From Flavobacteriaceae bacterium (GTDB lineage Bacteria; Bacteroidota; Bacteroidia; Flavobacteriales; Flavobacteriaceae), in the NCBI GenBank assembly GCA_013003145.1, contig JABDLH010000013.1, forward strand, positions 1-26,438: a DNA stretch of 26,438 bases. The letters run 5' to 3'. The position numbers and the translations under genes were made by a program. How positions within the stretch are numbered: position 1 is the first letter of the stretch; every line of letters starts with the position of its first letter. This document shows, piece by piece, positions 12,366-14,418 of the stretch. The notes below the pieces were generated by a model. That model had not been told where the DNA came from. It saw only the letters and a program-made list of their open reading frames with translations, and ran no database searches.

Positions 12366-12427
12366 GCGGGAGTAGCTCAGTTGGTACCCGCCCGAACGTG
12401 CCTTTCGGTACGGGCGGGGAGCGTCAG
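12366..12427 (+). pseudogene. Truncated tRNA-Gly copy split by a palindrome
   Basis: Bases 12366-12386 are identical to the first 21 bases of tRNA-Gly(TCC) at 12486-12506. Bases 12419-12427 (GAGCGTCAG) are identical to the next nine at 12507-12515. Between them sits a 32-base palindromic insert. Similarity stops before the anticodon, so no functional tRNA can form. The following bases extend GAGCGT into another small hairpin with ACGCTC. Confidence 0.85.
12387..12418. repeat. 32-bp palindromic insert in the tRNA-Gly copy
   Basis: The ends CCCGCCCG and CGGGCGGG are perfect complements. The interior adds GTGCC/GGTAC around a TTTC loop. Removing exactly these 32 bases restores uninterrupted tRNA-Gly sequence across the D loop, with no target-site duplication visible. 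Confidence 0.8.
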
Positions 12428-12485
12428 ACGCTCATGGGATCAATTTTGATGATCACCCACAATGAATAATATTGCTTAATTATAA

Positions 12486-12558
12486 GCGGGAGTAGCTCAG
12501 TTGGTAGAGCGTCAGCCTTCCAAGCTGAATGTCGCCGGTTCGAACCCGGTCTCCCGCT
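12486..12558 (+). tRNA. tRNA-Gly (anticodon TCC)
   Basis: A complete 73-base cloverleaf. The acceptor starts GCGGGAG and ends CTCCCGC with discriminator T. The anticodon stem TCAGC/GCTGA encloses loop CTTCCAA with anticodon TCC. The T arm reads GCCGGTTCGAACCCGGT. A broken 5' copy lies 120 bases upstream. Confidence 0.96.
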
Positions 12559-12565
12559 CAAAACT

Positions 12566-12639
12566 TTGAGTTAGCGTTTGCTATTCCGGTTCAGGTTTAT
12601 ATGCCCCCGGGCGCTATAACGTACAACCTTGGAACTCAA
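12566..12639. repeat. Long-range inverted repeat in the Gly-Thr tRNA spacer
   Basis: TTGAGTT (12566-12572) and AACTCAA (12633-12639) can pair across the spacer. They enclose a smaller GC-rich hairpin around GCCCCCGGGC (12603-12612). It could be a tRNA-precursor processing structure; function is not known. Confidence 0.45.
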
Positions 12640-12642
12640 CAA

Positions 12643-12714
12643 GCCGACGTAGCTCAGGGGTAGAGCGTTTCCTTGGTAAGGAAGAGGTCACGGGTTCAAT
12701 TCCCGTCGTTGGCT
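12643..12714 (+). tRNA. tRNA-Thr (anticodon GGT)
   Basis: A complete 72-base cloverleaf. The acceptor GCCGACG pairs with CGTTGGC (one G-T pair), with discriminator T. The anticodon stem TTTCC/GGAAG has loop TTGGTAA with anticodon GGT. The T arm reads ACGGGTTCAATTCCCGT. It is the second tRNA-Thr of the cluster. Confidence 0.96.
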
Positions 12715-12777
12715 CTATAGTTTGATGAAATATTGAGTGTAACGAGAGGTTGTTGTGAGAGCGATGGCCCGTGACCA

Positions 12778-12844
12778 AGGTCACGCCTGCCTGCCGGCAG
12801 GCAGGGGTTCAATTCCCGTCGTTGGCTCTATAGTTTGATGAAAT
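12778..12844 (+). pseudogene. Partial tRNA-Thr(GGT) 3' copy split by a palindrome
   Basis: AGGTCACG (12778-12785) equals 12685-12692 of the intact gene. Bases 12806-12844 are identical, 39 for 39, to 12693-12731, which cover the T arm, acceptor 3' strand and 17 bases of downstream flank. A 20-bp perfect palindrome (12786-12805) separates the two parts, and removing it restores the tRNA sequence exactly. The preceding bases contain AGAGCG at a spacing similar to the intact gene, so more degraded tRNA sequence may extend upstream. It cannot form a functional tRNA. Confidence 0.85.
12786..12805. repeat. 20-bp perfect palindrome in the tRNA-Thr copy
   Basis: CCTGCCTGCCGGCAGGCAGG is a perfect palindrome. 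Immediately before it CGTGACC/GGTCACG (12770-12776 and 12779-12785) forms another perfect 7-bp inverted repeat with a two-base loop, using tRNA-derived sequence as its right arm. Confidence 0.85.
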
Positions 12845-12936
12845 GCTGAATTCATTGACGGGAGTTTAATCTCGTTTACGGCTCATTTATCGCATACATT
12901 GTACACTAATATAAACTAAGAATAAATTTTTTTAAA

Positions 12937-14124
12937 ATGGCAAAGGAAACTTTTGATCGTTCCAAACCGCACTTGAATATAGGTACTATTGGACACGTAG
13001 ATCACGGTAAAACTACATTGACTGCTGCTATTACTACTGTTTTAGCAAATGCAGGTCTATCTGAATTAAGGAGTTTTGACTCGATTGACAACGCTCCCGA
13101 AGAAAAAGAAAGGGGTATTACAATCAACACCTCACACGTAGAGTACCAAACTGCTAACCGTCACTATGCCCACGTTGACTGTCCTGGTCACGCGGATTAC
13201 GTGAAGAACATGGTTACAGGTGCTGCTCAGATGGACGGTGCTATCCTTGTTGTGGCTGCGACTGATGGTCCTATGCCACAGACTCGTGAGCACATCCTTC
13301 TTGGACGTCAGGTAGGTATTCCTAGAATCGTTGTTTTCCTTAACAAGGTAGACATGGTTGATGATGAGGAGCTGTTAGAGCTTGTTGAGATGGAAGTACG
13401 TGAGTTACTTTCTTTCTACGAGTACGATGGTGACAACGGGCCTGTTATCTCTGGTTCTGCTCTTGGAGCATTGAACGGTGAAGAGAAGTGGGTTAACACT
13501 GTAATGGAGCTGATGGATGCTGTAGATAGCTGGATCGAACTTCCTGAGAGGGATGTTGATAAGCCATTCTTGATGCCGGTTGAAGACGTGTTCACTATTA
13601 CCGGTCGTGGAACTGTTGCTACAGGTCGTATCGAAACAGGTGTTGCTAACACTGGAGATGCTGTTGATATCATCGGGATGGGAGCTGAGAAATTGAGCTC
13701 TACTATTACTGGGGTTGAGATGTTCCGTAAGATCCTTGACCGTGGAGAAGCTGGTGACAACGTAGGTATCCTTCTTCGTGGTATCGAGAAATCTGATATC
13801 AAAAGAGGAATGGTAATCTGTAAGCCAGGTTCTGTTAAACCACATGCTCAGTTTGAAGCTGAGGTTTATATCCTTAAGAAAGAAGAAGGTGGACGTCACA
13901 CTCCATTCCACAATAACTATCGTCCACAGTTCTACGTAAGAACAACAGACGTAACAGGTACTATCAATCTTCCATCTGGAGTTGAAATGGTAATGCCAGG
14001 GGATAACCTTACAATTACTGTAGACCTTATCCAGCCAATTGCACTAAGCGTTGGTCTTCGTTTCGCTATCCGTGAAGGTGGTAGAACCGTAGGTGCTGGT
14101 CAGGTGACTAAGATTTTAGATTAA
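12937..14124 (+). CDS. tuf: Elongation factor Tu
   Basis: A protein of 395 residues, full length. EF-Tu delivers aminoacyl-tRNA to the ribosome using GTP. The P loop GHVDHGKT is at 19-26, DCPGH near 81-85, and the NKVD guanine-specificity motif follows. The switch region [10 protein letters not shown] and the domain 2/3 sequences ([39 protein letters not shown]) are all intact. Codon use favours GGT, GTT and CGT, as expected for a very highly expressed gene. It lies directly downstream of four tRNA genes and upstream of tRNA-Trp and secE. The 92 bases before its start contain no tRNA, although 12858-12884 looks like a further degraded tRNA 3' end. Confidence 0.98.
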
Positions 14125-14140
14125 TATACTAGCATATAAT

Positions 14141-14182
14141 ACACTAAGGGTGTCTCGGTTTAACCGGGATACCTTTCAGTGT
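14141..14182 (+). other. Long imperfect hairpin between tuf and tRNA-Trp
   Basis: The arms ACACTAAGGGTGTCTCGGTT and AACCGGGATACCTTTCAGTGT can pair along almost their whole length with G-U pairs and a single-base bulge. No T run follows. It could partially terminate after tuf or mark an RNase cleavage site releasing tRNA-Trp. Confidence 0.6.
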
Positions 14183-14190
14183 AATTATAA

Positions 14191-14263
14191 ACGGGTGTAG
14201 CTCAGTTGGTAGAGCACTGGTCTCCAAAACCAGGTGTCGGGAGTTCGAGTCTCTCCTCCCGTG
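14191..14263 (+). tRNA. tRNA-Trp (anticodon CCA)
   Basis: A complete 73-base cloverleaf. The acceptor ACGGGTG pairs with CTCCCGT with one T-T mismatch at pair 6, and the discriminator is G. The anticodon stem CTGGT/ACCAG encloses loop CTCCAAA with anticodon CCA. The T stem is GGGAG/CTCTC. It lies between tuf and secE, a common placement in this phylum. Its last 16 bases and flank are repeated 67 bases downstream. Confidence 0.94.
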
Positions 14264-14294
14264 CGGAATATAAAGTCATGAGACGAGAAGCTTG

Positions 14295-14337
14295 TCCCGA
14301 GCGAAGTCGAGGGAAGTCTCTCCTCCCGTGCGGAATA
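14295..14337. repeat. tRNA-Trp 3'-end copy joined to a palindromic repeat
   Basis: Bases 14315-14337 are identical, 23 for 23, to 14248-14270 (T loop, T and acceptor 3' strands and seven bases of flank of tRNA-Trp). Directly before it stands TCCCGA-GCGAAG-TCGAGGGA (14295-14314), an imperfect palindrome of a type, GAGCGAAGTCGA, that recurs in many flavobacterial genomes as far as I recall. An outer pair GAGAC/GTCTC (14280-14284 and 14316-14320) frames it. Confidence 0.8.
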
Positions 14338-14418
14338 AAAGATCCGGTAAGTCCGGAGGTCCCGGTAGCCCAGGCTCCGGAAAACACATCAGGGATCAAT
14401 TCAAAGAAATAGCGAAAG

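Follow-up and report, generated by a model that had tools for sequence, protein, structure and literature searches.

Palindrome-bearing partial tRNA copies in a Flavobacteriaceae genome as probable gene-less derivatives of GIY-YIG elements

Three tRNA genes lying within 2 kb of one another in the draft genome of a Flavobacteriaceae bacterium are each accompanied by a partial copy and a palindrome. The stretch of DNA analysed (assembly GCA_013003145.1, contig JABDLH010000013.1, positions 1 to 26,438 of the forward strand) is 26,438 nucleotides (nt) long and is referred to here, at its full length, as the window. Its tRNA-associated features are probably gene-less derivatives, either non-autonomous or decayed, of tRNA-embedded elements that encode a GIY-YIG nuclease and would home into tRNA genes and restore them, in a manner resembling the phage endonuclease SegB; we assign this reading a probability of about 70%. 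It draws on exact empty sites in a congener, on the 10 of 18 palindromes of this genome found in pseudo-tRNAs and on a recurring nuclease–tRNA architecture, together with the shared direction of nuclease and tRNA at 15 of 15 loci, 25 of 40 junctions that match tRNA on both sides, nuclease lineages that sort by target, and the cutting of tRNA genes by SegB.

Inserts at three tRNA genes

Beside the ARAGORN-intact genes for tRNA-Gly(TCC), tRNA-Thr(GGT) and tRNA-Trp(CCA) are exact partial copies of each, every one with its own palindrome (Table 1), as a sequence-only reading of this DNA had described. The Gly copy belongs to what we refer to here as the 5′ type, with the truncated copy upstream and a palindrome that usually falls at or within the D-arm; it consists of nt 1–21, a 32-bp palindrome, nt 22–30 (an exact partial copy at 12419–12427) and the complement of part of nt 22–30. 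The Thr and Trp copies are of the 3′ type, with the truncated copy downstream and the palindrome in the anticodon or T-arm. Their order is hairpin, 20-bp palindrome, nt 50–73 and native 3′ flank at Thr, and junction motif, palindrome, nt 58–74 and flank at Trp. Contiguous tRNA sequence is split by the palindrome at 21|22 in the Gly copy and at 50|50, with one base shared, in the Thr copy, bearing out the claim that two of the palindromes are clean insertions; the Trp palindrome merely adjoins its fragment, without interrupting tRNA sequence. No transposase was found in the region of the window that was read, in line with the same reading.

Table 1 Features of the three inserts and their parent tRNA genes (window coordinates).
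Feature	Position	Strand	Basis
Intact tRNA-Gly(TCC)	12486..12559	+	ARAGORN
Intact tRNA-Thr(GGT)	12643..12715	+	ARAGORN
Intact tRNA-Trp(CCA)	14191..14264	+	ARAGORN
120-bp insert 5′ of tRNA-Gly(TCC), 5′ type	12366..12485	+	Exact 120-bp gap in congener G060
Truncated tRNA-Gly copy, nt 1–21	12366..12386	+	Exact match
32-bp palindrome CCCGCCCG..CGGGCGGG at D-loop position 21|22 of tRNA-Gly copy	12387..12418	+	
tRNA-Gly nt 22–30 and complement, forming hairpin GAGCGTC-A-GACGCTC	12419..12433	+	Sequence, tRNA match, fold
113-bp insert at tRNA-Thr(GGT), 3′ type	12692..12804 (alignment register)	+	Exact 113-bp gap in G060; G016 homologue
Hairpin CGTGACC-AA-GGTCACG, right half tRNA-Thr sequence	12770..12785	+	Same in G016
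20-bp palindrome CCTGCCTGCCGGCAGGCAGG at tRNA-Thr nt 50	12786..12805	+	
Displaced tRNA-Thr 3′ fragment, nt 50–73	12805..12828	+	Exact match
Junction motif GAGACGAGAAGCTTG in Trp insert	14280..14294	+	Manual reading
Palindrome TCCCGAGCGAAGTCGAGGGA of Trp copy	14295..14314	+	
Displaced tRNA-Trp 3′ fragment (nt 58–74, 14315–14331) and 3′ flank	14315..14340	+	Direct repeat of 14248–14273

Palindromes as such are not in excess in the window (12, against 2–13 in five approximate shuffles), and their abundance was rejected as a signal for that reason; what stands out is their position. A group I intron, which would be a spliced intron interrupting its host tRNA, was likewise rejected, the functional copies in the window being uninterrupted according to ARAGORN. 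A motif resembling GAGACGAGAAGCTTG was also read by eye after the GIY-YIG stop codon at locus L151 and beside a tRNA-Leu(TAG) of the same genome.

Empty sites and variation among relatives

The locus differs between close relatives, the comparison that the sequence-only reading had proposed. Aligned with G060, a congener with 100% EF-Tu and 99% PRS identity, the window contains exact insertions of 120 bp at tRNA-Gly and 113 bp at tRNA-Thr, and 530 of the 541 surrounding bases are identical. The Trp insert, judged by manual reading, is shared by G060, has diverged in G062 and is missing from G061. An assembly artefact is an unlikely source of the partial copies, because similar arrangements occur in other assemblies and G060 cleanly lacks the Gly and Thr inserts.

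Exact tRNA fragments occur at 4 of 30 tuf loci (G000, G060, G016 and G066) and at 6 of 30 prs loci, the other 24 having none. All fragments at these 60 loci of relatives are on the same strand as the tRNA, and a reversed-tRNA control gave 0 matches. The Thr insert of G016 has the hairpin and palindrome of the window combined with G016's own tRNA sequence; the same hairpin–palindrome insert is found at tRNA-Thr in both G016 and locus L230, and related inserts lie at two tRNA-Gly loci of the window's own genome. At the prs/tRNA-Leu site, manual reading places a form with a GIY-YIG gene at an identical position in G000 and G017, the G017 site being that of the element in the window's own genome, and 3′-type inserts in G060, G061 (in tandem) and G007. 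The corresponding locus of G062 (L099, 2584–2735) has the 5′ part of the native tRNA-Leu (about nt 1–42) followed by an intact, foreign-looking tRNA-Leu(CAA), an apparent replacement of the host tRNA judging from its sequence.

Folds of the Gly and Thr inserts are better than those of their shuffles (z −2.93 and −3.37), and that of the Trp stretch is not (z −0.23). The Thr insert and displaced 3′ end (window 12716–12830) adopt a predicted cloverleaf-like fold with a new acceptor-like strand, also seen in one of the two L230 copies and not in the G016 homologue; a tRNA-like fold as a general property of the inserts was rejected, as that homologue folds otherwise. Such folds would suit host hairpins that serve RNA processing or regulation within the tRNA operon. 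That origin is very unlikely given the lack of the Gly and Thr inserts in G060, the exact fragments at so few tuf loci, the Trp value and the differing G016 fold, and the palindrome by itself accounts for much of the stability.

Palindromes in the genome and the family

The draft genome that contains the window (2.17 Mb in 309 contigs, 68% complete) holds 18 copies of the three palindromes: seven of CCTGCCTGCCGGCAGGCAGG (at most 2 mismatches), two of TCCCGAGCGAAGTCGAGGGA (at most 3) and nine of the pattern CCCGCCCG(N4–24)CGGGCGGG. Ten of them lie in pseudo-tRNAs by manual reading (4 of 7, 2 of 2 and 4 of 9, respectively), their hosts being Gly (two), Thr, Trp, Leu(TAG) (two), Leu(CAA) (three) and an Ala-like 5′ fragment. 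This is far above expectation (P = 7e-19 or 5e-9 for an assumed background of 0.5% or 5%), which upholds the earlier suggestion of palindromic elements in tRNA-derived hairpins. The remaining eight are outside tRNAs, mostly in repeat-rich DNA. At L021, L024, L025 and L020:1–250 such palindromes sit within short tandem-like DNA (GTTACAG, GGCAGTT and GTCCCTAT repeats), and at L022, the end of contig C181, a tandem repeat of about 148 bp with one CCTGACTGCCGTCAGGCAGG palindrome per unit runs up to the contig end.

Of 299 genomes of the family, 57 contain the 20-mer without mismatch, and a backward-pattern control gives 0 in all rows. The 30 loci fetched hold 35 copies, of which six have a tRNA match of at least 13 nt within 60 nt in an automatic test (reversed control, two); manual reading placed eight in pseudo-tRNAs (L229, L230 twice, L231, L232, L241, L244 and L251) and 27 elsewhere. 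The proposed tie between palindrome and tRNA is thus seen in 10 of the 18 copies in this genome but fails for the other eight and for these 27: tRNA pseudo-copies are favoured sites of the palindromes, not their sole sites.

GIY-YIG genes in the fuller element

A fuller form of the arrangement, comprising a truncated tRNA copy with palindrome, a GIY-YIG gene of 80–140 amino acids and, where the contig continues, an intact tRNA, all in one orientation, is present at two loci of this genome and in several relatives, including one Moraniibacteriota genome. The elements measure 67–120 bp in the window and less than 1 kb with the nuclease gene. Five GIY-YIG matches were found in this genome, of which two are in long proteins and one, at a contig end, is below the cut-off; each of the two standalone genes above the Pfam cut-off comes after a tRNA 5′ fragment that carries a palindrome. 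On contig C270, outside the window, prs is followed by a tRNA-Leu 5′ fragment with palindrome, the GIY-YIG gene and another fragment of that kind, after which come intact tRNA-Leu(CAA) and one more copy, nearly full in length, that has its palindrome at the D-loop.

The C270 protein matches PF01541 (E = 2e-13), and invariant Y, YVG, R, H and E columns run through 12 aligned GIY-YIG sequences. For the nuclease, the best sequence match in the PDB is 1zg2, also the first Foldseek hit of the model; this and the one-domain build are likenesses to the standalone Slx1/UPF0213 proteins, as far as these are covered in the part of PMC1564403 used here. In NCBIfam, one protein had a single match far below the cut-off and the other none. 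The C270 nuclease was not found in a scan of viral_contigs; a tblastn search of phage records showed that two Staphylococcus phages (OR849895.1 and OR845007.1) encode a relative with 38% identity.

A protein search with the C270 query returned eight homologues besides the query, one of them from Zeaxanthinibacter enoshimensis. All eight contain LPAGRQA, the palindrome translated in frame, a result partly selected because the query itself held that stretch. Five loci were located in named genomes. The C270 order at tRNA-Leu(CAA) recurs in one Flavobacteriaceae metagenome-assembled genome (MAG) and two Croceivirga MAGs. In the Moraniibacteriota MAG, a 5′ copy of tRNA-Met, its anticodon loop holding the same 20-bp palindrome, precedes the gene and an intact tRNA-Met. 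In a Patescibacteria locus the GIY-YIG gene is 3′ of tRNA-Gly, without a clear fragment. A complete element is found at tRNA-Ala in G062, the counterpart in the window's own genome ending at a contig end with an identical palindrome, and the architecture extends to Arg, Ala, Pro, Met, Val and Asp tRNAs.

These findings bear on a simpler account, in which tRNAs were duplicated locally by slippage or recombination and REP-like palindromes (resembling repetitive extragenic palindromic sequences) later entered the unconstrained pseudo-copies, the GIY-YIG genes being passengers. The eight palindromes outside tRNAs, tandem copies at L100, L230 and L262 and the gene-less state of the window inserts would fit it. 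We consider it improbable, as the insertions at empty sites include non-duplicated sequence, the same hairpin–palindrome insert is shared by tRNA-Thr of G016 and L230, related inserts lie at the two tRNA-Gly loci, and GIY-YIG genes, which sort by target, are repeatedly framed in the same way by truncated and intact tRNA.

Survey of standalone GIY-YIG loci

Among 90 standalone GIY-YIG loci, 30 chosen by a tool and 60 picked by hand from the best-scoring matches listed, an intact tRNA or transfer-messenger RNA (tmRNA) lies within about 1.5 kb in 15 (14 + 1), a fragment of at least 15 nt in nine, and either in 17; the respective counts for 20 UvrC control loci are 0, 1 and 1, and a reversed-tRNA control gave 0 of 90 and 0 of 20. 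The 15 of 90 correspond to P = 1e-9 or 3e-6 if 25 or 45 tRNA clusters, respectively, are assumed per 3.5 Mb. At all 15 loci the nuclease is co-directional with every nearby tRNA or tmRNA, the tRNA-His and tmRNA cases being about 400 bp from the nuclease gene. Of the 12 standalone genes in the three congeners, nine lie close to a tRNA or tmRNA: five are accompanied by fragments (Ala and Asn), and four are not, two of these being near a tRNA and two near tmRNA. Related genes a few hundred bp 3′ of tmRNA, with no tmRNA fragment seen, occur at L165, L256 and L259, in three genomes; the genes form a single clade.

Palindromes cluster at a few tRNA positions (about 9, 21–24, 28–46 with the arm replaced, 32, 36, 50 and 57–59). 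Junctions were mapped for 39 locus/palindrome pairs chosen by eye, giving 40 junctions, three of whose rows relied on a tRNA from a different locus; the Leu(CAG) pair of this genome and the L244 pair yielded none. Twenty-five of the 40 match tRNA on both sides, 18 of them without loss, and 14 on a single side; the L146 row was set aside as a self-match, because ARAGORN misreads its pseudo-Val copy as tRNA-SeC.

Nuclease lineages, targets and repeats

In a tree of 103 GIY-YIG domains, tRNA-target labels assigned by reading (28 rows) require 13 changes, with a minimum of 12 and a lowest value of 17 in 500 shuffles. Three repeat families (20 rows), whose motifs were picked after viewing the loci, require two changes, the minimum, with a lowest shuffle of six, and the distinction between tRNA and repeat type requires one, with a lowest shuffle of 11. 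Label tests excluded 55 rows that had no repeat class, the duplicates L117 and L150 were removed, and the labels compared were those of tRNA target and repeat type. Support for the forks is modest, with 16 of the 99 inner branches starred and 38 open. On this sequence tree, the lineage of a nuclease corresponds to its target tRNA or, elsewhere, to the family of palindromic repeat.

Direct repeats of at least 14 nt flank 43 of 82 loci. In off-centre windows of the same loci, the right-hand one smaller than the test window, the counts are 3 and 2 of 82; the 82 are those of the 90 left when short loci were dropped, with tRNA loci included (87 were used in one other test). UvrC loci were unusable as a control here, because about 1.5 kb had been fetched around the N-terminal domain, with the gene end at or beyond the edge. 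Hairpins next to the nuclease gene exceed the control at stem 8 (37 against 8 of 82) and not at stem 9 (8 against 6) or stem 10 (4 against 4). At the loci read in detail (L138, L173, L141 and L135), the direct repeats around the GIY-YIG gene are themselves long, palindromic and intergenic.

Because 43 of 82 loci are flanked by repeats and the three repeat families map to different nuclease clades, we tentatively raise a broader possibility, hairpin homing, in which small GIY-YIG nucleases mobilise palindromic repeats in Flavobacteriaceae. Each lineage would be tied to one hairpin-forming target, either the arm of a tRNA isotype or a repeat family, and would spread itself and gene-less palindromes by cutting and repair from a filled copy; the window inserts would be gene-less products at tRNAs.

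Proposed cycle

Sequence comparison establishes the insertions relative to empty sites beside intact tRNAs, the recurring nuclease architecture and the fit between lineage and target. In the tRNA-restoring cycle that we favour, the nuclease would cut an uninterrupted tRNA gene near a loop, and recombination repair would then copy the element in. Since the element would supply the missing tRNA part, the tRNA gene would be made whole again, its former part being pushed aside as a pseudo-copy. Re-cutting of this pseudo-copy, or its folding as a tRNA, is probably what the palindrome prevents. The inserts in the window would have been mobilised by a nuclease encoded elsewhere.

Several points weigh against this proposal. 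The window inserts hold no nuclease gene; the 90 surveyed loci form a non-random sample, and 17 of 90 against 1 of 20 gives a Fisher P of 0.11. The majority of standalone GIY-YIG genes are away from tRNAs, and the DNA fetched around 30 palindrome loci of other genomes includes a GIY-YIG gene at just 2 of them. Cutting and movement are inferred from sequence, and a restored tRNA would stay a target, from which the host would have to escape.

Relation to known systems

The closest parallel is SegB of phages T4 and T6, a free-standing GIY-YIG homing endonuclease that, according to the part of PMC13096335 used here, cuts within tRNA genes of many isotypes at RAWTSGAAC, which is complementary to the consensus of the T-loop. 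The likeness, a GIY-YIG gene beside tRNA genes, is one of target and position only. As for SegB, the C270 protein and the 12 aligned sequences have a GIY-YIG catalytic domain with conserved residues, and the gene sits at its presumed target, with element-free alleles elsewhere (tRNA-Leu in G000 and G017 against 24 of 30 prs loci). SegB differs in being phage-borne, and that part of the source mentions no palindrome-marked pseudo-copies; the elements here are chromosomal, rebuild the tRNA by our reading and have one target per lineage.

REP sequences and their REP-associated tyrosine transposases (RAYTs), together termed REPtrons, resemble the present elements in their small palindromes, in copies that lack a gene and in a cognate nuclease gene with palindromes on both sides, as given in the portion of PMC3733652 used. 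RAYTs are Y1 transposases, whereas the gene here encodes a GIY-YIG nuclease, and tRNA arms are among the sites. The sequence-only reading had tentatively suggested single-strand transposition as in REP/RAYT or IS200; a Y1 enzyme would then move palindromes and fragments by way of single-stranded hairpins. The palindromes are indeed REP-like, and Y1 genes (PF01797) occur in 7 of 15 tested genomes, among them G017, a carrier of the tRNA-Leu form. PF01797 was found neither in the window's own draft (68% complete) nor in the three near-complete congeners (G060–G062), and it is missing from G016 and G007, which carry tRNA inserts; membership in REP/RAYT or IS200/IS605 was rejected, the suggestion is not sustained, and a Y1 origin is highly improbable.

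Integration of phages or integrative and conjugative elements (ICEs), the usual explanation of tRNA fragments in the passages of PMC9897764 used, likewise displaces a tRNA end and restores an intact copy, and the 3′ type looks like a displaced attachment site left by an integrase. That system works through integrases on many kb; here the elements are 67–120 bp, or under 1 kb with GIY-YIG, and include 5′ duplications. Integrase-mediated tRNA integration, with its 3′-only displacement, was rejected for the 120-bp Gly insert, which displaces the 5′ part, and remnants of this kind are hardly to be expected given the 5′ type, the sizes, the palindromes and the nuclease gene, although no search aimed at integrases was made. 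Yeast mitochondrial GC clusters are GC-rich mobile palindromes for which help from an intron-encoded endonuclease has been proposed; they differ in being organellar, and the part of PMC4478555 used describes no tRNA-restoring nuclease element. GC-rich palindromes flanking Neurospora mitochondrial tRNA genes are cited in its reference list.

Significance

In the open-access PubMed Central literature, which leaves out subscription papers and preprints, neither bacterial tRNA-embedded GIY-YIG elements nor GIY-YIG genes paired with palindromic repeats were found described. Free-standing GIY-YIG endonucleases of phages that cut tRNA genes are known, and the same logic seems to operate here in chromosomal elements, which seem to rebuild the invaded tRNA and to mark the broken copy with a palindrome, at many isotypes and in both Bacteroidota and Moraniibacteriota.

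If true, this would give tRNA fragments a source besides prophages, ICEs and CRISPR, account for the tRNA-plus-palindrome N-termini (LPAGRQA) of deposited GIY-YIG proteins, and suggest a route by which a host tRNA is swapped for a foreign one. It would also offer a testable mobiliser for palindromic repeats without a known transposase, a question left open for the CGTC REPs in the portion of PMC3733652 used. Should hairpin homing hold in Flavobacteriaceae, GIY-YIG enzymes would be a second nuclease class, beside RAYTs, behind REP-like repeats.

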